Source: a virus
IMG/VR virus record: IMGVR_UViG_3300020182_000126
Coordinates: 1 to 30,721 of that record
DNA: 30,721 bases
Reading direction: 5' to 3' (one strand)
Each line of letters opens with the position of its first letter. The first letter of the stretch is position 1. The notes beneath the pieces were generated by a model, which was given only the letters and a program-made list of their open reading frames with translations, ran no database searches and was not told where the DNA came from. Shown in pieces: positions 2,428-29,514 of this stretch. A program made the translations under genes and the position numbers.

Positions 2428-4191
2428 CTAAGGACCTATAATATTGAAGCCTCCACCATTGAGATTATCAGAGGTGGGGGTTTCATTTGCAACGATTAAC
2501 GAGCTACTAGAATTGTTCACAACACTACTGTCTACAATTACAGGAGTTGTTCCACCCATCCGGGCAGCAGCATTAGCAGTTACACTATTAAGTTTTTCTC
2601 CAGAGAATACATTTACCAATTCACTTATGAAATAATCTACAGCCTTTTGAGTCTTTGTCGATATATTAAGAACCGTTTTATTAGCTTCACCCTCACCAAT
2701 ACCGGTTGCAGAGCTAAATCTTTCTTCTAAGTTCATTGCACCTCCGTAAACCCTCTCTCCAGAGTTCATTCTACCTAATGAACCGTCTGGAAGACTATAC
2801 TGCTTCTCTTTTATACCTCTCGCCCAGTTAGATATATCCTCAACCATGGTTACTGCTCCAGTAATTATCTGTGCTACAGCTGAGACAGACGCTTCTCCTG
2901 AAGTAACAACTCTTCCTTCATTTTCTGCTTTTAAGCGAGCTCGTTCAATACCAGATGTTCCTTCAAGGAAGAAAGCAGCATATCCTAAAGCCTTGCCAGT
3001 ACCTCTAAGAAGTTTATTAGCAGCTCCTTTTCTAGTTGCTGTTGATCTAATCGAATCAACTTGCTCTAACACATCAGTAGCTTTTAAGAACATTGTGGGT
3101 TTGCCTATAGCTCTAAACCTAATACCCTTACCCGTATCTACAGCTTCATATCCTGCCTTTGCCAAATCGTCAGCGTAAGAAGGTGATATTAATTTTAAAG
3201 CAGCTTTTTGTGAAGGTGTATTTGCAACATTAGATATAGTGGCAGCAAATGGAGCACGAGGAACCTTTACAACTGAACCACCTTGGCCTGTTCTAACTGT
3301 TCTACCAGAAGCTACTGGATCTCCCATTTGAGGCAGATCAGTTATATCAAACCCATTCATAGAACTTAATAAACCTCTTTGAGCTCTATTGCTACCCAAT
3401 CTTGCCAACCTATTCAATCGCTTCTGTTCTTTTACATATTCTTTTTGCAATTGCTTTTTGCTTTGAATGTCAGCTTTGTTCCCTCGCTCAATTTGCTCTA
3501 ACTCTATACGAGCTTTACGAGCAGCACGGTATTCTTTTTCAGCCAACTCTTTAGCTTGAAATTTAGCATCAGCGTCTAGTGCATTAGCATTTAATACACT
3601 TCTATTTTTGAATGATTTGGCAGCTTCTTGAAATCGCTGTTGTCTAAACTTCTCTTCTCTTAAAGCAGCTTTTCTATCAGCTTGTATTTTTTTCTGATTT
3701 TCAATAATCTCTGCGCGTTCAGCTTTTACTCTTTTTGCTTCCGCTCCCTCAGCTCTTGCTAAATCTTTTATAGCAAGTCTGTTCATCTTTCGTTGAGTGT
3801 CTAAATTATCAGCTAACGCGTTTTGTATTGCTTTACCTGTTGCGTACATTGTAGTGAAAATAGCTTTCCTAAACACAAACCCAGCTGCAGCGAGTATACC
3901 CTTCACTATCGCCATAGGAGTTAGTCCAGCTAAAAAAGCGAGGGGGTTAAACTTTGATGCAGCTGCACCCACACCTGCTAGTATTCCCTTTCCGCCTCCA
4001 CGTGTGGGTAACTTTCTATTCCTATCGAGCTTATCCTCTAAACTATCCAATCGAGATCGCTCTTGAATGGAGAAAAACCTAGTAAAGTTTTTATCAAGAT
4101 TGTCTAAGCTCTTGTTAGCCTCATCTTGATTCTTAATTATGGTTCCGTTATCTTCTTGGATACGAACTGCTAATTCGGATATACTAGTCAT
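2428..4191 (-). CDS. Tape-measure-like tail protein (gp29-type), putative
   Basis: 587 residues, almost the length of T4 gp29 (590), the tail-length protein. Residues 1-60 are charged and helical (SLEDKLDRNRK). Residues about 68-118 are hydrophobic and glycine-rich (GILAGVGAAAS, PLAFLAGL, MAIVKGILAAAGFVF), as in tape-measure membrane segments. Residues about 130-275 form a long Lys/Glu/Arg/Ala coiled coil. The rest is mixed, with a Gly-rich end. It is not an alignment-level match from memory; the call rests on architecture, length and position directly downstream of gp26 and its frameshift extension, where T4 has 26-51-27-28-29. Its GGA ribosome site overlaps the TAG of the frameshift extension, five bases before the ATG, implying coupling. 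Alternative: another internal virion protein. Confidence 0.6.
   Translation of the reverse strand: MTSISELAVRIQEDNGTIIKNQDEANKSLDNLDKNFTRFFSIQERSRLDSLEDKLDRNRKLPTRGGGKGILAGVGAAASKFNPLAFLAGLTPMAIVKGILAAAGFVFRKAIFTTMYATGKAIQNALADNLDTQRKMNRLAIKDLARAEGAEAKRVKAERAEIIENQKKIQADRKAALREEKFRQQRFQEAAKSFKNRSVLNANALDADAKFQAKELAEKEYRAARKARIELEQIERGNKADIQSKKQLQKEYVKEQKRLNRLARLGSNRAQRGLLSSMNGFDITDLPQMGDPVASGRTVRTGQGGSVVKVPRAPFAATISNVANTPSQKAALKLISPSYADDLAKAGYEAVDTGKGIRFRAIGKPTMFLKATDVLEQVDSIRSTATRKGAANKLLRGTGKALGYAAFFLEGTSGIERARLKAENEGRVVTSGEASVSAVAQIITGAVTMVEDISNWARGIKEKQYSLPDGSLGRMNSGERVYGGAMNLEERFSSATGIGEGEANKTVLNISTKTQKAVDYFISELVNVFSGEKLNSVTANAAARMGGTTPVIVDSSVVNNSSSSLIVANETPTSDNLNGGGFNIIGP
2447..2483 (+). 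terminator. Candidate rho-independent terminator after gp32
   Basis: On plus-strand RNA, CCTCCACC (2450-2457) pairs with GGTGGGGG (2473-2480), with one T-G wobble and a 15-base loop. Three further pairs (AAG with TTT, one wobble) extend it to 11 bp, followed by TTTCATTT. It lies 22 bases past the gp32 stop but inside the 3' end of the convergent tape-measure gene, where it encodes a glycine-rich C-terminus. The U tract is imperfect. Confidence 0.4.
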
Positions 4192-4196
4192 GTTTC

Positions 4197-5092
4197 CTAC
4201 TTTTCTTGTGCTTGACGCTGCATTTCTAAATGGTTAATAAGCATTGTAACGTATATTTCCCTTTCCCAAGGTAGCATTGTATTTAAATCGTTTAGCGAGT
4301 AATTATGATTTTCCATTAGTAAGAAATTGGTTTCATAAAAATTAGCTAGCGTTTCATGGGAAAGGGCTACTCGAAAAAATCCTGTAACCCTGCTAATGTG
4401 TATTTATTGTCAGTCTCACATTTACTACATTTAAATTCTATTTCTTTTACAATCGTTGGTGTGTTTTCCACAAAGGTTCTTAATGAACTAAACTGATTTG
4501 CTGTCAGTGACTCAACAAAATTTGTTAATTCTTCTTTAGTTGAATCTACAGCAAGTAGTCTTTCGTCCTCCGTGCATACAGCTTCAATACAACTTATAAC
4601 TGTACTGAACATTTGTTCTGCAAAGGAAGAAGGATCAATTATTGCGGTGTTGGATATAGCCTCCTTGTAAGGCAGATGCCTCATTTCAATTGATATATCT
4701 TCTGTTATTGATATGTTTCTCGACTCCCTATCAAAGACTTCCACTTCTATACTATCTAAAGCTACAGATGTCTCTGTGACGTGATCACAATCATCTGATT
4801 GACAGATAAGATGCATTGCAATTGTTTCTCCAACAGACTTGGATCTAATTTGAGTAAATAAGTATTCGATGTCATATACAGTTAATAAATCAACATTAAC
4901 GTTGTCTGTATTTAAACATTCGGTTATAAGATTTACAGTCGCATTAAGTATCTGCTTTTCATCTTGTGATTCCAGAGCAATTAATAAAACTTTTTCTTCT
5001 TTTACCAAGTAAGGTCTGTATTGAGTTTTAACTCCGCTAGAGGGAATAACAACATCATATCTTGAGATGTCTGTTAGTTGGGGTAGTGCCAT
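4197..5092 (-). CDS. gp26 with predicted -1 frameshift extension (gp26-gp51-like fusion, 298 aa)
   Basis: This is the predicted longer product of the gp26 gene. Reading runs in frame 0 from 5092 to the slippery site at 4373-4379, shifts -1, and continues for 58 residues to TAG at 4197-4199. The extension begins RVALSHETLANF, continues through NHNYSLNDLNTMLPWERE and ends in a Gln-rich helix (EMQRQAQEK). It has no strong start codon of its own with a ribosome site: its first in-frame ATG is 20 codons in, leaving 39 residues. Its coherent amino-acid content, ending right before the tape-measure ATG, argues for translation. By analogy with lambda gpGT and P2 E+E', the fusion would be a tail-assembly chaperone holding the tape measure. 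By T4 gene order it replaces gp51, the hub-assembly factor absent from the mature T4 virion. Use of the frameshift is inferred from sequence only. Confidence 0.7.
4259..4366 (-). promoter_or_regulatory. Predicted frameshift-stimulating long-range RNA stem
   Basis: On the minus strand, CCCTTTCCCA (4366-4357) starts six bases after the slippery heptamer and is perfectly complementary to TGGGAAAGGG (4268-4259). This gives a 10-bp stem enclosing 88 bases. The spacer length is within the usual 5-9 bases for -1 frameshift stimulators. The 3' arm lies in the codons of the LPWERE motif. Confidence 0.6.
4367..5092 (-). CDS. 26: gp26, baseplate hub / tail assembly protein (T4_baseplate family)
   Basis: 241 residues (T4 gp26 is 208). 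The order of features (N-terminal MALPQLTD; KEEKVLLIALES near residue 32; LLTVYDIEYLFTQIRSKSVGE near 69-89; C-terminal CSKCETDNKYTLAGLQDFFE) matches the T4 gp26-type baseplate family. Four cysteines form two pairs, C97-x4-C102 (then H104) and C222-x2-C225, a possible zinc ribbon. In T4, gp26 is needed for hub assembly. Here the gene sits just before a tape-measure-like gene, and its end carries a frameshift signal, so it may be the short form of a tail-assembly chaperone. AAGGATG about nine bases before the ATG serves as ribosome site. The gp19-like gene ends 16 bases upstream. Confidence 0.85.
   Translation of the reverse strand: MALPQLTDISRYDVVIPSSGVKTQYRPYLVKEEKVLLIALESQDEKQILNATVNLITECLNTDNVNVDLLTVYDIEYLFTQIRSKSVGETIAMHLICQSDDCDHVTETSVALDSIEVEVFDRESRNISITEDISIEMRHLPYKEAISNTAIIDPSSFAEQMFSTVISCIEAVCTEDERLLAVDSTKEELTNFVESLTANQFSSLRTFVENTPTIVKEIEFKCSKCETDNKYTLAGLQDFFE
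4373..4379 (-). other. Slippery heptamer T TTT TTC for -1 frameshifting
   Basis: In the gp26 frame the codons read GAT TTT TTC GAG TAG, giving the canonical X XXY YYZ pattern (U UUU UUC) two codons before the stop. After a -1 slip, the next codon is CGA and the frame stays open for 58 residues. Confidence 0.75.
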
Positions 5093-5108: not shown

Positions 5109-5678
5109 TTATTTTGAAGTCCAATTTGTATATGAAAGCTGGACACTGAGCTTGACTAGTCCATCAAGCTCATTAGTAAATTCAATCGAGTTCATTGTTG
5201 TTGGGAAAGCATCTAATAGCGTACATTCATACACTATCGATTCTCTTGTAGTTATATCTAGGTCTAGATTCAATCCAAAGATTTTATCTATAGGGAAATC
5301 AAATGCCATTCCCTTTTTAAGTTGCTTCACTCTCACTTGCTTAGTAAATTCGTTAGCATAGCCTATTTCGTAAGTGTCTTGATTAACAACTTTATTCTGC
5401 CACGTCTCAAAATACTTTCTTATGTTATAGTCATTCATAACATGAAAGGTTAGGTTGATATCATCCGAAGCAAATCCATTAGGCATCTTGCGAGCCTTCA
5501 TGCCAATCAATCTTTCCTGAGTCATTATCTGTCTACCAGGCATGTTGACATTGGTGCAAAGCACATTTAGCTCTCTTGTATCGTATACTCCCAACGAAGG
5601 TAACTCTACTAAGAATTGATTAGCAGAAGCTAATCCTCTACCTTTACTTACTGCAGCTTTCAATTGGTTTACACTCAT
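5109..5678 (-). CDS. gp19-fold tail tube protein (possible gp54-type tube initiator)
   Basis: 189 residues. The N-terminus LASANQFLVELPSLG, then NVLCTNVNMPGRQIMTQERLIG near residue 38 and DINLTFHVMNDYNIRKYFETWQ near 73, are typical of the T4 gp19 tail-tube family (beta-barrel that stacks as hexamers). The main tube gene of T4-like phages normally lies beside the sheath gene gp18, which is not here. This copy among baseplate and completion genes is therefore more likely a tube-initiating or hub ring protein (the role of T4 gp54) than the major tube subunit. That distinction is inference. The ATG overlaps the preceding stop (ATGA), with AGGAAG before it. Confidence 0.7.
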   Translation of the reverse strand: MSVNQLKAAVSKGRGLASANQFLVELPSLGVYDTRELNVLCTNVNMPGRQIMTQERLIGMKARKMPNGFASDDINLTFHVMNDYNIRKYFETWQNKVVNQDTYEIGYANEFTKQVRVKQLKKGMAFDFPIDKIFGLNLDLDITTRESIVYECTLLDAFPTTMNSIEFTNELDGLVKLSVQLSYTNWTSK

Positions 5679-8617: not shown

Positions 8618-10009
8618 ATGTCCGAAACTACTCCTCAAAGCGAATATATAATCGAACGCGCAATATTTACTGCCGATCGATTACCAGGCACAGCAATTGC
8701 TCCTATGGACCTAAGTGGGTCTATCGCAGAGTTGGTGATATATGAAAGTATTGAATTGCCATATCTCACTGGTGCTGTTGCTATAGCTGATAGTGTTAAG
8801 TTCAGAGATGCTATGGGAATAAAAGGAACAGAAAGATTAGAAATAGCTTTACTAGCAACTAAAAATTCTGCTCCTATAATAAAAACATTTATGATAACAG
8901 GTATTGATAAAAACATATCTGTTAACGAACGAACAGATTTAATCACACTTACCTTATTAGAAGAGCACGCTTATCTAAGCGGTGTAATGAAGATGAGTGA
9001 ATCATACACTGGTAAGCCAGAAAATATAATCAATAATATATTATCATCTCAATTGAATAAAGAGTTGTCAAACGAAGGCAATGTAAATCAACAACAAAGA
9101 ATGAAAGTTAATATACCTTATTGGATGCCTCTACAAGCATGTGACTGGCTTAGAGATAGGATGTCTTATTCATACGGCAGTCCATTCTTTTTATACTCTT
9201 CTTTAAGAGACGATAAGATACATCTAGATGACTTAGACAACCTTATGAGAAAGGCTGCATGGAATAAAAGTGACCCATACACATTCTCACAATCAGCTCA
9301 CAATCAAGTACCAGATCAAGTTGGGCCTGATATGAAAAGATCAGAATTTTTTCATGTAAAGTCCTACAGAGCTCAAAAAATAGAAAGTACATTCAGACTT
9401 GCGCAAGCTGGTGCTATAGGGTCTGAATTTAAAACTATGGATATATCTTCTGGATCATTTTTAGATAATGCAAAACATGACTCTAGAGATACATTAAACA
9501 GACTTGTGCAGAGTGTAGAATCAAACTCTGACATAGATGCAGCTATAGGATATGATACAAGCCTTGTTTTGGGCAATGGTAAAGCAATAGGAGAGCTCCC
9601 CTCTAAAGTCTTTAGTGGAGTTGTAACTACAGGGTTGTTTTATGAAAATGATGGTGTGACAACAATAAGCAGTTACCACGAAGAATCTAAACAACAAGCT
9701 CTTTACAAATCAAAGATAAAATCGGCTTCTCTAAGAACTATACTAATGAATAATGTTATTACGATAAATGTACCAGGTGCACCATACATCGCCGCTCAAC
9801 AGAATATAGGGGTAGGGTCTAATCTTACACTTAATTATCCAGCACCAACTCAATCAGCAGAAAGTTTAGCGTCTGGTGAACCGAGCTTAGATAAAAATAG
9901 ATCAGGTAAGTTTTTAATTTATAGAACAATGCATGTGTTTTCAGACGGTAAATATAATGTTCAAATGGATATTGTAAAACTTACTAATAAGATAGGTGGT
10001 GTACAATGA
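8618..10009 (+). CDS. gp27-like baseplate central hub protein, putative
   Basis: 463 residues (T4 gp27 is 391). Features: AELVIYESIELPYLTGAVAIAD near residues 35-56, KGTERLEIALL near 75, FMITGIDKNISVNERTDLITLTLLEEHAYL near 106-135 and PYWMPLQACDWLRDRM near 166-181. This succession of a beta barrel, a helix-rich docking region and a second barrel is that of the gp27/VgrG/P2 gpD hub family, and the position between gp53 and a gp5-like gene fits. It would form the trimeric ring linking tail tube and spike. The assignment is from pattern and context; direct similarity to T4 gp27 is weak by eye. Overlaps the next gene by four bases (ATGA). Confidence 0.7.
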   Translation: MSETTPQSEYIIERAIFTADRLPGTAIAPMDLSGSIAELVIYESIELPYLTGAVAIADSVKFRDAMGIKGTERLEIALLATKNSAPIIKTFMITGIDKNISVNERTDLITLTLLEEHAYLSGVMKMSESYTGKPENIINNILSSQLNKELSNEGNVNQQQRMKVNIPYWMPLQACDWLRDRMSYSYGSPFFLYSSLRDDKIHLDDLDNLMRKAAWNKSDPYTFSQSAHNQVPDQVGPDMKRSEFFHVKSYRAQKIESTFRLAQAGAIGSEFKTMDISSGSFLDNAKHDSRDTLNRLVQSVESNSDIDAAIGYDTSLVLGNGKAIGELPSKVFSGVVTTGLFYENDGVTTISSYHEESKQQALYKSKIKSASLRTILMNNVITINVPGAPYIAAQQNIGVGSNLTLNYPAPTQSAESLASGEPSLDKNRSGKFLIYRTMHVFSDGKYNVQMDIVKLTNKIGGVQ

Positions 10010-11115
10010 GAACAATAAACACAGAGTTTTATGGTGATGATTCCAGATGGTTTATTGGAGTGGTTTCACAGATAGGTGATGTAAGAAACCTAGGTAGAGT
10101 TAGAGTACGTATATTTGGTATTCATAATGAAGATACATCTAAAATCAAGATAACCGATCTACCATGGGCGTCTGTGATTGTACCTGTTACTCAAGGTGGT
10201 GTATCTGGTTCTACTATGCCTGATGGTATACAAGTAGGTGCTCAAGTCTATGGTATATTCTTAGACGGTAAGCATTCGCAATCACCTCTTATATTAGGTT
10301 CTATACCACAAGACTCTGGAATGAGAGTTATAGTAGATGAACCATCAGATTCCTTTGCGTTGGCAAAACCTTCTAAGAATGAAAGTAATATCCGAATCGG
10401 TGATGAAGTTACTAAAGTAGAAGCAGATAAACTTGTAGCAATGGGTGAGCCCAACCCTATTATTGGAACAGTTGTTAATACGAGACAAGCTGAGCTACTA
10501 AATGTGGGTGCTTCTGGATCTGGAATATTAAATCTTAATCTTATTGGTTCTACTCGTCAAGAGCAAGCTTTTAATTATCTTAAAGGTTACTTCGAAACAA
10601 ATGGTAACATTGGTGATCCAGGATCATGTGCTGCAGCATTTGTGGGTAATTTTATCCATGAGTCGGGTCACAATTTGGACCCTAAAGCTAGACCTCCTAG
10701 AGAGCCAGCTGTAGGTATAGCTCAGTGGAATTCAAGACAACCCGAACTAAAACAATTTGCGAATAGTGTATCTGGAGCAAGTTATTTAAACTTCTCAGTT
10801 CAATTAGCATTTGTAGTACATGAGCTGGAGAATAAACAATCAAGAAGAACTTATTCTCGATTAGTCAATTCTAGTACGATTATAGAATACACCGAAGTTG
10901 TTATGGCTCTTTACGAGACTCCTTCTACCGCTTATAACTATCACAAAGAATCATCATTCATAAGCAACTATAACATCCATGCTCGTAACGGTGGTATCAG
11001 AGGTGCTGTAAAGAAAACATCTAGACAGAGTAGTGCTTTATTGGCTTACTCAGCAGCATTTGAGAAGAGATTAATATCCGCTAAGGAAGTATCTAGCAAA
11101 TTTGGAGATGCGTAA
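10006..11115 (+). CDS. gp5-like hub protein: OB domain plus tail lysozyme domain
   Basis: 369 residues. Residues about 1-105 are a gp5/VgrG-type OB fold (WFIGVVSQIGDVRNLGRVRVRIFGIH; LPWASVIVPV; PDGIQVGAQVYGIFLDGKHSQSPLILGSI). Residues about 185-330 resemble the phage tail lysozyme family Phage_lysozyme2: FVGNFIHESGHNLDP with candidate catalytic E219, then VGIAQWNSRQPELKQFA at 236-252. T4 gp5 (575 residues) instead carries a T4-lysozyme-type domain and a C-terminal beta-helix. Both are replaced or missing here, and a separate gene at 12494 supplies a beta-helix. It would cut peptidoglycan during DNA injection. Joined to neighbours by ATGA before and TAATG after. Confidence 0.8.
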   Translation: MRTINTEFYGDDSRWFIGVVSQIGDVRNLGRVRVRIFGIHNEDTSKIKITDLPWASVIVPVTQGGVSGSTMPDGIQVGAQVYGIFLDGKHSQSPLILGSIPQDSGMRVIVDEPSDSFALAKPSKNESNIRIGDEVTKVEADKLVAMGEPNPIIGTVVNTRQAELLNVGASGSGILNLNLIGSTRQEQAFNYLKGYFETNGNIGDPGSCAAAFVGNFIHESGHNLDPKARPPREPAVGIAQWNSRQPELKQFANSVSGASYLNFSVQLAFVVHELENKQSRRTYSRLVNSSTIIEYTEVVMALYETPSTAYNYHKESSFISNYNIHARNGGIRGAVKKTSRQSSALLAYSAAFEKRLISAKEVSSKFGDA

Positions 11116-12494
11116 TGGCAACTATATCAGAAATTAACAGTATATTAAAAAGTGTAAAAGTTGGCGCTGGTTTCAACTCTCTCGTTCAAGATACATCAGC
11201 CGTTGCTTCTAATGTTCAAGCTTTAAACTCAACAAGCCTTGGAGGTCTACTGAATGAGACTCTAAGTGGTGTTCAATCTCTTAATACATCAGTCAACACA
11301 GCATCTAGTATAGCAATACTATCTCAGAACATACCAGGTATACAGGATCAGATAATAAAAGATGTGAGTAGTAGTAAAACAGACCTAGATGCCATAACAG
11401 GTGCTACAGTATCTAATGGTTTTTTGGATGTTGTTATTACATGTCCTACTCCAGAAGGAGTGAAGGCATCGATAGGAGCTATAGCTACTCCAACTGCTTC
11501 ACAGACTGAAACAATTATTGGTAACATAACTCCAAAGAAATATTCAAGTCAAGTCAAGGACATATCTACCAAGGACTTTTCTGATTTCTCAGGTGACTTT
11601 TCCAAATCGTTGGGTTCTTTTGTGTCATCATTTACCAACCAATCGAGCACTCAAACAGGCAATCCAATACAAGATATACTCTTGCAGTCAGATAAAACTC
11701 CTTTGACTGTGATAGAGAACTTTGGAGTTCCTAAAAACCAAGCTGTGGCAGTGCTTGTATTATTACAAGCTAAGGAAGATCGCAAAGCTATAATTCTAGT
11801 TCAACAACTAACTAAGAAACCTATAGGAGATATAGAGACTTTTATATCTTCTGTTCCTATCACTATCAATGAGCAGCTCCAAGTAAATACATCATTTGCC
11901 TCTACAACAGGTACATATGATGTATCAAGTAAGAATAACACATGGGTAGGTCCTACTACCCAAGATAACTACTTTGACATTATTGCTACTCAAGAACAAC
12001 TAATAGTTGAATTTATTGTGGCTAATAGAGAGATAACAGAACTAGTATTTTATGGTCACGAGATGACACCTAATCAAGTACTTACTGCAAAGGATATACA
12101 CGCATCGTATGTTGCAGATGGAAATGATGGCATACCGTTCCACTATGTAATACAATCTAATGGTAACCTACAGCGCGGTAGACCTCTATCAGTAGACGGC
12201 ACATACTCCACAACCCATGATAAGTACTCTGTGGGTATAGTTGTTCCCCACTATCAAAACAGTGATGCTTCGGTTCAGCAAGGTGCTACCATTAGCAAGA
12301 TACTTGCAGCTTTTTATCAAGTATGGCCTGGAGGTCAAGTATTCGATGCGCAAGAGGATTTGGATGAATCTCAAGTATCAGTAGGTGTTTCAATTGCAAG
12401 TTATATGGAAACATTTAAAAAGGTTAATAACGGAGGATCTGGTAGGTCCTTTTCAACAGCTCAGTTAATTAGTGCTGCGCAAGGAAATGTATAA
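11115..12494 (+). CDS. Baseplate protein with amidase-like (Amidase_2/PGRP) C-terminal domain, probably inactive
   Basis: 459 residues. The N-terminal half (1 to about 260) is Ser/Thr-rich and helical with no recognised domain. Residues about 285-432 follow the Amidase_2 order: ELVFYGHEM (H315 as the first zinc ligand), GIPFHYVIQSNGNLQRGRPL (339-358), HDKYSVGIVVP (368-378), then WPGGQVFDAQEDLDESQVSVGVSIASY (404-430). Active members have GH...(D/C)PG in this last block; here the His position is Ala (near 412) and the D/C-P-G becomes V-S-V-G, so two of three zinc ligands seem lost. I infer a structural, perhaps peptidoglycan-binding, role beside the lysozyme-type hub protein. TAATG junctions on both sides. 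Confidence 0.65.
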   Translation: MATISEINSILKSVKVGAGFNSLVQDTSAVASNVQALNSTSLGGLLNETLSGVQSLNTSVNTASSIAILSQNIPGIQDQIIKDVSSSKTDLDAITGATVSNGFLDVVITCPTPEGVKASIGAIATPTASQTETIIGNITPKKYSSQVKDISTKDFSDFSGDFSKSLGSFVSSFTNQSSTQTGNPIQDILLQSDKTPLTVIENFGVPKNQAVAVLVLLQAKEDRKAIILVQQLTKKPIGDIETFISSVPITINEQLQVNTSFASTTGTYDVSSKNNTWVGPTTQDNYFDIIATQEQLIVEFIVANREITELVFYGHEMTPNQVLTAKDIHASYVADGNDGIPFHYVIQSNGNLQRGRPLSVDGTYSTTHDKYSVGIVVPHYQNSDASVQQGATISKILAAFYQVWPGGQVFDAQEDLDESQVSVGVSIASYMETFKKVNNGGSGRSFSTAQLISAAQGNV

Positions 12495-13942
12495 TGGGTA
12501 AGACAAACAATGTGGAATCGGTTGTTAGCCGAGAGGTAGTTCAAGGGTCAGGTGCGGTACACTCTCAGGGGTTGGCAAAGCATCCCTTCTCTGACAATAC
12601 AGGAGCTTACCCCAAAGCTGGGAAAGAAGGCAAGCCAGTAACAACACAAGGTGGATTATTAATTAATACATATGGTGCTGATGTGCCTATCGATACAGCT
12701 CAAGGCAATGCTGCTAATAACACAACTTGTTATGCTCATACAACACCTGCAGGACATACAGTAGAATATAACGATACGCCTGGCTCAGAAAGAATAATGA
12801 TTCGCCATAAGAACGGTGATGGTATAAACATTGGACCTGATGGGTCTATTATCATATCATCTAAGAGACGTATTGATAAAGCTAACGAAGACTATTTCTT
12901 AGAAGTAAAGAATGGTAATCTAAAGTTTGAAGGTAATCTTACCATTGATGTAACAGGTGATTTCAATGTTAATGTTGGTGGTGAGTATAATGTTAACTCT
13001 ACTAAGAAGACAGAAGTAGTTAATGGACCATACACTAGAACAGTTACTGGAGATGATATAAAAACAGTTGATGGTAATCAGACTAATTTAGTTACTGGAG
13101 GAGGAGCTCATCAGTATCTAGAAGGTCTATCAACTGTTGTTAAAGGTGATAGTAGATATATTGTAGAAGGTCCTCACACAGAATCTATATCCGGAGTATT
13201 GACTATGACATCAGAAGCTGAAGTCGTGCTTACTTCACCTGAAGCTAACATAGCTGCTGATAACTTATCGTTGTTTGGTGATACAGGTACTATAGGTGGT
13301 GAAAATATGCAAATGTATACAATGAATTTAAGAGCTGGTGGTACAGTATACGCTGACGTTTCAATGGATACTCCAAAGGGTAATATTACCAGAGTTGCAG
13401 GAACATCAGCTCACTACACTACATTCCATGGTGATCTAAATGGTACTGCTCTAAGATCTAACATTACAGCTGCACAGAATTACCCTGATACAGATCCTGG
13501 TGGCAACACATCCGGATCTGCGTATTCATATACAAATAACTCAGCAGATGATTTAACTAATAACACAGATGAAACTGCTAAACCTACTTCTACTCTTTTA
13601 ACTGATTATAGAACCAAGAGTGACAAAGGTGTGAGAGTTGTTAAGGTTGATCCAGATGATGTCCAAAAGAATAATATTGATCTATCTAAAAAGACTTCTG
13701 GCGTAACAAATAAGAATATAGATGTAGCTCAAGTAAGACGTAAGATGAGAGATCCAGCTCATAGAGATAACGTAGAGTTTACTACTCTGATGTTATCTGA
13801 AGGTAAACTATCACCAGATTATGCTAACGTATCTCCTCCTAACGTAGAAACTGTACAAGACACAGAAACACTGGTTGTACAAGGCAGTTCTGTTTTAGGC
13901 AATCCATCTCAACATCTTACTTCTAAAAGGATTATTAGATAA
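12494..13942 (+). CDS. Beta-helical spike protein (gp5 C-terminal-like)
   Basis: 482 residues. An N-terminal segment (NTYGADVPIDTAQGNAANN near 58-76; GHTVEYNDTPGSERIMIRH near 88-106) is followed by DGINIGPDGSIIISS and a long array of short beta strands (LEVKNGNLKFEGNLTIDVTG; FNVNVGGEYNVNS; YTRTVTGDDIKTVDGN; STVVKGDSRYIVEG), the periodic pattern of a triple-stranded beta-helix as in the T4 gp5 C-domain and VgrG needles. After about residue 330 it becomes Asn/Thr/Asp-rich and less regular, with a C-terminal stretch RRKMRDPAHRDNVEF and ending ...KRIIR. It probably forms the trimeric membrane-piercing needle, here separate from the OB/lysozyme protein. TAATG junctions at both ends. Confidence 0.75.
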   Translation: MGKTNNVESVVSREVVQGSGAVHSQGLAKHPFSDNTGAYPKAGKEGKPVTTQGGLLINTYGADVPIDTAQGNAANNTTCYAHTTPAGHTVEYNDTPGSERIMIRHKNGDGINIGPDGSIIISSKRRIDKANEDYFLEVKNGNLKFEGNLTIDVTGDFNVNVGGEYNVNSTKKTEVVNGPYTRTVTGDDIKTVDGNQTNLVTGGGAHQYLEGLSTVVKGDSRYIVEGPHTESISGVLTMTSEAEVVLTSPEANIAADNLSLFGDTGTIGGENMQMYTMNLRAGGTVYADVSMDTPKGNITRVAGTSAHYTTFHGDLNGTALRSNITAAQNYPDTDPGGNTSGSAYSYTNNSADDLTNNTDETAKPTSTLLTDYRTKSDKGVRVVKVDPDDVQKNNIDLSKKTSGVTNKNIDVAQVRRKMRDPAHRDNVEFTTLMLSEGKLSPDYANVSPPNVETVQDTETLVVQGSSVLGNPSQHLTSKRIIR

Positions 13943-26184: not shown

Positions 26185-29100
26185 ATGCCAAAGCAAATTG
26201 TAAACATTAGTGATACAGTAAAGACATTCCAAGAGAAGGTAAACATAATCTCAGCTGATGTGGGTTGGAGAGGTAATCTTACAACCACACAAGACTCTGA
26301 TGTTGTAGGAGCTATCAACGAACACGATGCTGAGTTGGGAACAATAACATCAGCTGCAATGGGTACTACTGCTGGTACAGTATCAACAGCTATAAACGAA
26401 TTAGACACAAGACTAGACTCAATCAACGATACACTGATTAACTCAGCTAAGTTACACATGAGAGACTCTAGTGCTACTAACACTATAAAGGGCGGTTTAG
26501 ACGTCCATAGCAACGTGGACATCGGTGGTGACTTGCAGGTCGACGGTACTCTTACCGTGGACGGTGTTGTTAACATGAAGGCCGGTTCAAACGGATCAGT
26601 CACCCTAGGAGATGCTAATACAGACAACGTTGTATTCTCAGCTGACATTAATTCTAATATTATACCCAACACAGATAATACATATGACCTAGGATCATCT
26701 GCTCAACAATGGCGTGACATACACATTCATGGTACAGGTAATATTGATACTGTATCTGCAGATGATATCACTGTATCTAATACTCTAGATGTAAACACTT
26801 CTGCTACAATAGCTACAGCTAAGATTGAAGATCTTACATCTGGTAGAGTAGTACTAGCAGGCACCGGTGGTGAACTAGAGGATAATGCAAACTTAACATA
26901 CAACGGTACTCTTCTTACGGTAACGGGAAATGCTAAAGTAACAGGTACCTTAGATGTAGATACAAACGCTACTATTGCTTCTGCAAAGATCGAAGACTTA
27001 ACACCTGGTAGACTCACATTTGCGAGTACTGGTGGAGAGCTTGTTGATGATGCAGATTTAACATACAATACTACTACAGATACGTTTGCAACATCTAAAA
27101 TAGACATTGGTGTTCAAGCAGACTTGGCAAGTGCTAAGGTAGAAGACTTAACCGATAATAGAGTTGTTATTGTAGGTACAGGTGGTGAACTAGAGGATCA
27201 TTCAGGCTTTACCTTTGATGGTACAAATCTAAATGTGGGTTCAACAGCTATAGCTCATGCTACTGGTGATACACAAATAGGACGTGACCTAGACGTAGCA
27301 AGAGATTTAGAAGTTGTTGGAGACTTACAAGTAGGTGGTAATGTAACATCTACCGGTTGGGCTCTAAAGATTGCTGCTGAAACTGGAACAATAGATAATA
27401 TTACGCTAGGTGATACAATCACATTCGAAGCTGGCGAAGGTATCAACACAACAGTATCAAACAATAAGATTAACATTACTGGTGAGTTAGCAACAACAAC
27501 TAACAAAGGTGTTGCATCATTCGCTGCAGCAGACTTTAATGTATCATCTGGAGCTGTATCGATTGCTTCAATTGGTAACACACAAATAGACAATAGTTAC
27601 ATTAACATCGCTGCTTCTTCTGGTACGGCTAACGCAGTTAATCTCGGAGAGACATTTACAATTACAGCAGGTGAAGGTATTGATACATCAGTATCAGGTA
27701 ATACTATTACAGTTGCTGGTGAGCTTGCTACAACATCTAACAAAGGTGTTGCATCGTTTAGTTCGGATAACTTTGCGGTTAACTCAGGTGTAGTCACAGT
27801 TAAAAATAACGGCATTATACTTGGAACTGAAACTGTTGGTAACTATATGTCTGGTATTTCAGGCACAACGGATGAGATTACAGTAGTACACAGCGCTGGT
27901 GAAGGGTCGTCAGCAACAATATCTCTACCAGATGACGTCATTATAAGTCGTAATCTTACGGTTACTAACGACCTCACCGTTACTGGAGACTTTGTATTAC
28001 AAGGTGCTACTGTTATATCTGCTCATAAATTTAAAATGGGAGAGCCAACTGCAGGAACTCCTACAATAGACGGTGTGATATCAATTGATAGAGGTAGTTC
28101 AGATAGTGCTCAGCTAGTATGGAGCGAATCTTTAGATAGATGGCAAGCTGGTACTATTAACGATATGCAGCTTATTGCTCTGGAGAATGATAGCGCTAAC
28201 TTTACTCAACTCTCAGTAGACAATAACCTAATCGTTACAGGTAACCTAGAAATTAGAGGTACAACTACTACTGTTAACACAACAGATGTTAACATTGCTG
28301 ATAACTTAATTGTATTAAATAGCAACCACACAGGTGCACCATTAAGTACTCTAAGATCTGGTTTAGAAATTGAACGTGGTAGTGCTACTAATGCTAAACT
28401 ACAATATAACGAGAGTACTGATCAGTGGGAATTCACAGGACCTAAGACAGGTACATTAGCTGTTACTGACGATATAGAAAATGCTACTATTACTCTTACA
28501 GCTGGTACAGATTTATCTACAGGTGGTAATTTCACTACTAACCAAGGTAGTAACGAGACTGTTACTATCAACCATGCTAACATAACAAGAACAAATACTA
28601 CAACAACTGCTGCTCCTGGTTATGGAGCTACATTCACAGCTATTGATACTCTTACAACAAATGCAAGAGGACACGTAACTGGAGCTCGTACTAAGACAAT
28701 TACTTTACCGGCTGCATATTCACATCCAACATTTAACGGTGATGACTTCTCTGTAGATACTGGTGCTTTAACAGGTGCTACTGTAGTCTCAGATATCGAC
28801 ATTAACGTAACAACTGATGGTAACGGTCACGTAACAGACGCTAATGGTTCTGTAGCTACTAGAACCCTTACACTAGCAAATCTAGGATACACTGGTGCTA
28901 CAAATGCTAATAACTATTCATTACCTTTAGCAACTAACACTGTTAGAGGTGGTATTGAATTATTTAATAATACTGATCAATCAGTAGCAGCTAATGCAGT
29001 TACAACCACTGCTAGTAGAACTTATGGTTTACAGCTTAACTCTGCAAATCAAGGTGTTGTAAACGTACCTTGGGTTAATACAGTATACTCACATCCTAAC

Positions 29101-29514
29101 CACACTGGTGATGTTACATCTTCTGGCGATGGCGCTACAACAATTGCAAATGATGCGGTTACTTATGCTAAGATGCAGAACTTAGGAACAGCTAATAGAG
29201 TATTAGGAGCAACAGCTGCAGGAGTTATTGGTGAGACACAGATACAGACTGCAATGATTGCTACAGATGCTGTAACTGGTGCTAAGATTGCCGACAATAC
29301 AATTAACTCAGAACATTATGCAGCTGGTTCAATTGATAATGAACATATTGCTGATAATGCAATTAACTCAGAACATTATGCAGCTGGTTCAATTGATAAT
29401 GAACATATTGCTGATGATGCGGTTGGTGCAGATGAATTAAAAAGTGTTGTTTCTTTAATAATATATAACAGTGCAGGAACAGCATTAAAGACATTGTATG
29501 GCGCAGGAAGCTAA
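26185..29514 (+). CDS. Long repeat-containing tail fibre-type protein
   Basis: 1109 residues. The N-terminal region (about 1-95) is helical with NEHDAELGTI and ELDTRLDSIND, like fibre attachment domains. Then come beta-strand repeats: three copies of an AKIEDLT.GR...GTGGELED unit (from about residues 213, 268 and 318), two copies of a 79-residue unit with GEGI(N/D)T.VS and GELATT(T/S)NKGVASF (from about 396 and 475), and two blocks with IDRGSSDSAQLVWSESLDRW and IERGSATNAKLQYNESTDQW near 636 and 732. The C-terminus has tandem NSEHYAAGSIDNEHIAD repeats. This is the build of a trimeric beta-rich fibre. It likely determines or carries host-binding parts; no enzyme or chaperone domain seen. Confidence 0.75.
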   Translation: MPKQIVNISDTVKTFQEKVNIISADVGWRGNLTTTQDSDVVGAINEHDAELGTITSAAMGTTAGTVSTAINELDTRLDSINDTLINSAKLHMRDSSATNTIKGGLDVHSNVDIGGDLQVDGTLTVDGVVNMKAGSNGSVTLGDANTDNVVFSADINSNIIPNTDNTYDLGSSAQQWRDIHIHGTGNIDTVSADDITVSNTLDVNTSATIATAKIEDLTSGRVVLAGTGGELEDNANLTYNGTLLTVTGNAKVTGTLDVDTNATIASAKIEDLTPGRLTFASTGGELVDDADLTYNTTTDTFATSKIDIGVQADLASAKVEDLTDNRVVIVGTGGELEDHSGFTFDGTNLNVGSTAIAHATGDTQIGRDLDVARDLEVVGDLQVGGNVTSTGWALKIAAETGTIDNITLGDTITFEAGEGINTTVSNNKINITGELATTTNKGVASFAAADFNVSSGAVSIASIGNTQIDNSYINIAASSGTANAVNLGETFTITAGEGIDTSVSGNTITVAGELATTSNKGVASFSSDNFAVNSGVVTVKNNGIILGTETVGNYMSGISGTTDEITVVHSAGEGSSATISLPDDVIISRNLTVTNDLTVTGDFVLQGATVISAHKFKMGEPTAGTPTIDGVISIDRGSSDSAQLVWSESLDRWQAGTINDMQLIALENDSANFTQLSVDNNLIVTGNLEIRGTTTTVNTTDVNIADNLIVLNSNHTGAPLSTLRSGLEIERGSATNAKLQYNESTDQWEFTGPKTGTLAVTDDIENATITLTAGTDLSTGGNFTTNQGSNETVTINHANITRTNTTTTAAPGYGATFTAIDTLTTNARGHVTGARTKTITLPAAYSHPTFNGDDFSVDTGALTGATVVSDIDINVTTDGNGHVTDANGSVATRTLTLANLGYTGATNANNYSLPLATNTVRGGIELFNNTDQSVAANAVTTTASRTYGLQLNSANQGVVNVPWVNTVYSHPNHTGDVTSSGDGATTIANDAVTYAKMQNLGTANRVLGATAAGVIGETQIQTAMIATDAVTGAKIADNTINSEHYAAGSIDNEHIADNAINSEHYAAGSIDNEHIADDAVGADELKSVVSLIIYNSAGTALKTLYGAGS
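26809..27230 (+). repeat. Three degenerate coding repeats (50-55 residues)
   Basis: The codons for AKIEDLT recur at 26818, 26983 and 27133, spaced 165 and 150 bases, each followed by a GTGGELED/STGGELVDD-type block. They are similar at protein level and diverged in DNA, so an old duplication within the fibre shaft. Confidence 0.75.
27370..27816 (+). repeat. Two 237-base coding repeats in the fibre gene
   Basis: The unit starting at 27370 recurs at 27607 (period 237 bases, 79 codons), with shared GEL.TT.NKGVASF (27481 and 27718) and EGI.T.VS blocks. The second copy is slightly shorter at its end. Confidence 0.8.
29301..29420 (+). repeat. 60-bp tandem repeat, two nearly identical copies
   Basis: 29301-29360 and 29361-29420 are identical except for one base (A at 29356, G at 29416). 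Each encodes 20 residues of the NSEHYAAGSIDNEHIAD type. Near-identity at silent positions indicates a recent duplication near the fibre tip. Confidence 0.95.

Follow-up and report, generated by a model that had tools for sequence, protein, structure and literature searches.

A predicted −1 frameshift at the end of gene 26 in an uncultured T4-like phage and its relation to gp26 and gp51 of T4

The gene 26 locus

The sequence analysed (the window), from a marine T4-like phage, is a stretch of 30,721 nucleotides covering positions 1 to 30,721 of IMG/VR record IMGVR_UViG_3300020182_000126, and all coordinates refer to it unless another locus is named. The features of the gene 26 locus are as follows.

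5109..5678, minus strand: gene upstream of gp26 for a gp54/gp19-like member of the tail tube family; phrog_45 (tail tube), E = 2e-28
5092..4367, minus strand: open reading frame of gp26, the putative short tail assembly chaperone (TAC-N), 241 residues; PF12322 (T4_baseplate), phrog_150
4388..4391, minus strand: weak SD-like AGGG in the sequence, 8 bases upstream of the heptamer, a possible stimulator
4379..4373, minus strand: slippery heptamer T TTT TTC in the phase X XXY YYZ, near the 0-frame stop
4197..4373, minus strand: −1 frame extension (putative TAC-C), 58 codons plus stop, helical; phrog_634 (gp51 family), E = 5e-22; family dN/dS 0.16
4197..5092, minus strand: predicted frameshift product (TAC-NC), 298 residues; aligned by profile with the T4-type gp51 family through the junction (E = 1e-20)
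2428..4191, minus strand: tape-measure-like gene, 587 residues, named by position, length and composition only

The gp26 reading frame matches Pfam family PF12322 with E = 1e-49 over residues 11–241 (169.5 bits, the cut-off being 24.5), and its 3′ end reads CAG GAT TTT TTC GAG TAG on the minus strand, with the heptamer placed one codon ahead of the 0-frame stop. The −1 frame opens at 4403, being closed by TAA shortly upstream, translates behind the heptamer as RVALSHETLANFYETNFLLMENHNYSLNDLNTMLPWEREIYVTMLINHLEMQRQAQEK* and ends at the TAG at 4199–4197. Five bases (GAAAC) separate this stop from the ATG (4191) of the 587-residue reading frame. The gp26 end, heptamer, 58-codon frame and five-base gap had been described, with their positions, in an earlier reading made from the letters alone (the sequence-only reading) and were confirmed on re-reading. 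The whole gp26–extension stretch is identical in a second IMG/VR record (L002, 4132 bases, positions 1019–1911), and the heptamer is therefore not a one-off assembly error. Slippery heptamers occur in phase 21 times in the genes of the window, and a long −1 frame follows only that of gp26 (58 codons; 27 in the next best case); a −1 frame open for at least 58 codons is found at only 0.7% of in-gene positions of the window.

The 587-residue protein is coil-rich, alanine-rich and without cysteine, and is close in length to T4 gp29 (590 residues). No match to T4 gp29 was found by profile comparison, and so its assignment as a tape measure protein is based on position, length and composition. With this reservation as to the name of the downstream gene, the placing of a predicted short and long pair directly ahead of a tape-measure-like gene is supported.

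Elsewhere in the window, the gp5-like hub lysozyme seems to be split over several reading frames (10006–13942), comprising one with OB and phage tail lysozyme domains, an amidase-like one and one matching the gp5 profile over 339–579. A reading frame of 1109 residues at 26185–29514, after the wedge genes, gave no PHROG match.

Conservation of the heptamer and of the −1 frame

The first relatives comprised 85 loci (80 from IMG/VR and five from isolate phages), and in all 85 the extension follows T TTT TTC, T TTT TTT or T TTT TTA in the −1 frame. In a wider set the extension was found in frame −1 behind T TTT TTN in 178 of 180 resolved loci. Cronobacter S13 and Stenotrophomonas YB07, which were read by hand, carry the same −1 extension and heptamer type, and 16 further loci of this type bring the total of related loci with a phased T TTT TTN and the extension to 196. 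Since the arrangement is conserved across relatives, its presence in the window is not a matter of chance. Nowhere in these relatives is the 298-residue TAC-NC annotated as a single protein.

Clustering at 85% nucleotide identity gave 111 clusters, for which possession of the heptamer was an entry requirement; the fair denominator for its frequency is therefore given by the locus counts above. Among these heptamer-selected clusters the leading six T's are invariant, and the codon before TTT is GAT, AGT, TCT, AAT, GCT or GGT (Asp, Ser, Asn, Ala or Gly), always ending in T. Judged by the codons used in the rest of these genes, with the two Phe residues held fixed, the invariant T's and the T-final preceding codon have naive log10 P values of about −15 and −21, which treat the clusters as independent and overstate that independence because the clusters are related.

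The sequence-only reading had named an interrupted −1 frame, or a conserved start of its own for that frame, as findings that would speak against it, and neither was encountered when the homologous loci were aligned; both the heptamer and the −1 reading frame proved to be conserved.

The extension as a protein

The extension is under selection at the protein level. Its median dN/dS is 0.16 (0.25 for the C-terminal part of gp26), and its substitutions fall on codon positions 1, 2 and 3 in proportions of 31, 18 and 51%, a third-position bias. All 40 of the extension members tested matched the gp51 family (phrog_634). The structure model consists of two helices (pLDDT 81), for which no fold match was found in the PDB.

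Most deposited annotations treat the extension as a small protein in its own right, a short gp51 whose translation would begin independently or be reinitiated past the gp26 stop codon. Cyanophage, pelagiphage and vibriophage records list it as a gene of its own, `baseplate hub assembly catalyst', and a TAATG stop–start overlap that fits reinitiation is found in Vibrio nt-1, Vibrio D506 and Cygsa01. This explanation is nevertheless improbable. In 63 of the 111 clusters, that of the window's phage included, there is no ATG, GTG or TTG ahead of codon 8 of the extension, and the first ATG in the window is codon 19, which lies within a conserved helix. In 22 of the 111 clusters a stop directly before the heptamer shuts the −1 frame. 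The annotated starts are internal and inconsistent in place, in T4 gp51 the extension is fused to a gp26-like part, and reinitiation would have no need of six invariant T's. The start-codon and frame evidence led us to reject a start of its own for the extension, and the separately annotated gp51 entries are probably misannotated slippage products. Deposited genes of this kind with differing internal starts are found at L001 (3069–3203), L085 (3034–3225), L086 (3076–3222) and L099 (2576–2713).

Signals flanking the heptamer

An SD-like element is present upstream of the heptamer in 78% of clusters, compared with 52% when synonymous codons were redrawn, and Glu at this site is coded by GAG in 41 of 62 cases (27% elsewhere). 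Downstream, RNA folding is stronger than in dinucleotide shuffles only just behind the heptamer (mean z of −1.57 at +5); some 50 bases beyond this the z value is back near zero, as it is across most of gp26. A stem of at least eight pairs occurs in about one fifth of clusters, compared with 6% with the partners shuffled, and compensatory changes (for example CTC/GAG to CGC/GCG) are seen in the stems of cyanophages. The register and sequence of these stems vary from clade to clade; no single hairpin with a pairing common to all of them emerged, and the consensus fold across clusters was empty. The strong hairpin of cyanophage-like loci (L034, L132, L138, L142, L173, L177 and others), of up to 11 pairs between +5 and +36, is a good candidate for a frameshift stimulator. 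The window's own signals are weak, with a downstream z of about −0.4 and a short SD-like element.

The same −1 product would be obtained if RNA polymerase slipped on the T run and added an extra U to some transcripts, and the six to eight T's at the site among the relatives are in keeping with this. The six T's present in the window are short for transcriptional slippage, however, and the run is always phased like a ribosomal heptamer, with SD-like and hairpin signals on either side that are stimulators of ribosomal shifting; slippage during transcription thus appears even less probable than a separate start. A sequencing error or a decayed gene, in which the extension would in truth belong to the gp26 frame or be meaningless sequence, could be suspected from the homopolymer at the junction. 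It can be dismissed, since isolates and metagenomes show one and the same frame relation at every resolved locus and the extension is under purifying selection.

A programmed −1 frameshift, as first proposed in the sequence-only reading, is supported by the conserved phased heptamer, the selected −1 extension and the start-codon evidence. Gene 26 is very likely to encode both TAC-N and, by predicted −1 slippage on the heptamer, TAC-NC.

Loci without the canonical heptamer

A frame −1 extension without the canonical heptamer was found in 18 Ackermannviridae loci plus Vi01 (L194–L211 and L186), in Vibrio D506 (L185) and in Pseudomonas Cygsa01 (L091). These sites read GAR ATT TTC ATY TAA or similar, with ATT TTC or CTT TTC before the stop; TAATG is present in Limestone-like loci as well as in D506 and Cygsa01, and around the stop of the kuttervirus loci there is no standard start codon. 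An intact extension lacking the heptamer had also been named beforehand as counter-evidence. It is not seen among close relatives and is confined to distant ones (two besides the Ackermannviridae), all of which keep the extension in the −1 frame. One distant gp26-like locus (L228, 1001–1615) has an early stop in the frame and no extension, and is possibly damaged or built differently.

Tentatively, the gp26 family may have changed its route to the long chaperone more than once, using the heptamer in the window's phage, cyanophages and vibriophages, two genes in T4 and a −1 extension without the heptamer in the Ackermannviridae and in D506/Cygsa01-like phages, although we consider this somewhat doubtful. 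If it were true, the heptamer-less route would be either an unusual single-tRNA slip or a stop–start reinitiation giving free TAC-C.

Relation to gp26 and gp51 of T4

Both T4 gp26 and T4 gp51 appear among the hub assembly chaperones in PMC3004832, and gp51 is absent from the particle. The two proteins are related to each other (blastp E = 2e-6; T4-type profiles, E = 8e-18). The fused product of the window aligns to the gp51 family profile over 191 columns, continuously across the shift point (E = 1e-20), and the extension alone matches the C-terminus of T4-type gp51 (hhalign, E = 2e-9), as was found when the profile comparison proposed in the sequence-only reading was run. From the homology of gp26 and gp51 and these two alignments it follows that T4 gp26 corresponds to TAC-N and T4 gp51 to TAC-NC, and T4 would therefore make its short and long chaperones from two genes. 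The proposal that gp26 and gp51 are the T4 version of a chaperone pair is thus upheld by the homology, with one amendment: on the alignments gp51 is more than the extension, namely the full TAC-NC with a gp26-like N-terminal part. In T4, genes 26 and 51 are separate and on opposite strands and no frameshift is needed, whereas the phage of the window has one gene with a heptamer.

Comparison with known chaperone systems

T4 genes 26 and 51 are reportedly named, together with frameshifting in several other T4-like groups, in the abstract of an earlier study of T4-like tail assembly chaperones. According to the papers that cite it (PMC10885494 and PMC12846349), that study (Vladimirov, Gautam and Davidson; Virology 2022, 566:9–15) described a gp26-family TAC-N, a gp51-like TAC-C and a −1 frameshift in several groups, to which the window's phage is the same in kind; polyT slippery sequences in the TAC-N genes of T4-like phages are attributed to it in the paper on phage Adele (PMC12846349). 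The remark in the sequence-only reading that it knew of no such arrangement described for the T4 gp26 family is not supported in view of this work as so cited. The arrangement in T4-like phages was thus already published in 2022, and the locus is a new example of a known arrangement; what is new here is only the locus of this uncultured phage.

In lambda (G/GT) and HK97 (gp13/14; Xu, Hendrix and Duda 2004), too, the gene just ahead of the tape measure gene gives a short product and a longer one made by frameshifting, and the predicted pair in the window, ahead of its tape-measure-like gene, is alike in this respect. In a Foldseek search of the PDB with the gp26 model (pLDDT 93), the most probable match was the HK97 tail assembly chaperone (2ob9; probability 0.93, E = 0.25), a partial match over about 90 columns; a sequence search of the PDB gave nothing meaningful, and no sequence similarity of the window's chaperone to frameshifted chaperones of the lambda/HK97 type was found. 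The TAC-N of the window differs from those of lambda and HK97 in being larger (241 residues) and in having a CxxC-containing β part, and the heptamer of its family is T TTT TTY, compared with the GGGAAAG type of lambda. In the Vandenendeviridae phage Adele (PMC12846349) a chaperone −1 frameshift at a polyT slippery site likewise lies ahead of the tape measure gene, although Adele belongs to a different phage family and has the invariant motif GTTTTT.

Proposed mechanism and implications

Both tail assembly chaperones would be produced from the single gene 26. Most ribosomes are expected to terminate at the TAG and release the 241-residue TAC-N, and a minority, at a rate that is likewise presumed, would move back by one base at the T TTT TTC heptamer and read on to give the 298-residue TAC-NC. 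The 58-residue helical tail of the latter (TAC-C) would be the counterpart of the gp51 C-terminus of T4. By analogy with lambda G/GT we infer a chaperone function in which TAC-N and TAC-NC together would coat the tape measure protein and recruit tube subunits; the gene structure, its conservation, the selection on the extension and the gp26/gp51 homology are direct observations.

The locus and its relatives provide independent confirmation, from a much larger environmental sequence set, of a lambda-type chaperone pair in T4-like phages. Sullivan et al. 2010 (PMC3037559) described cyanophage gp51 as reaching only some 20% of its full length and noted the lack of gp51 in Aeh1; in AS-szw, a relative of Aeh1, the heptamer and extension are present and unannotated. 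The proposed slippage would explain both the `truncation' of cyanophage gp51 by about 80% and the seeming loss of gp51 in Aeh1. Many deposited records would then carry a wrong separate start for gp51, for which the proper annotation would be a ribosomal-slippage CDS.
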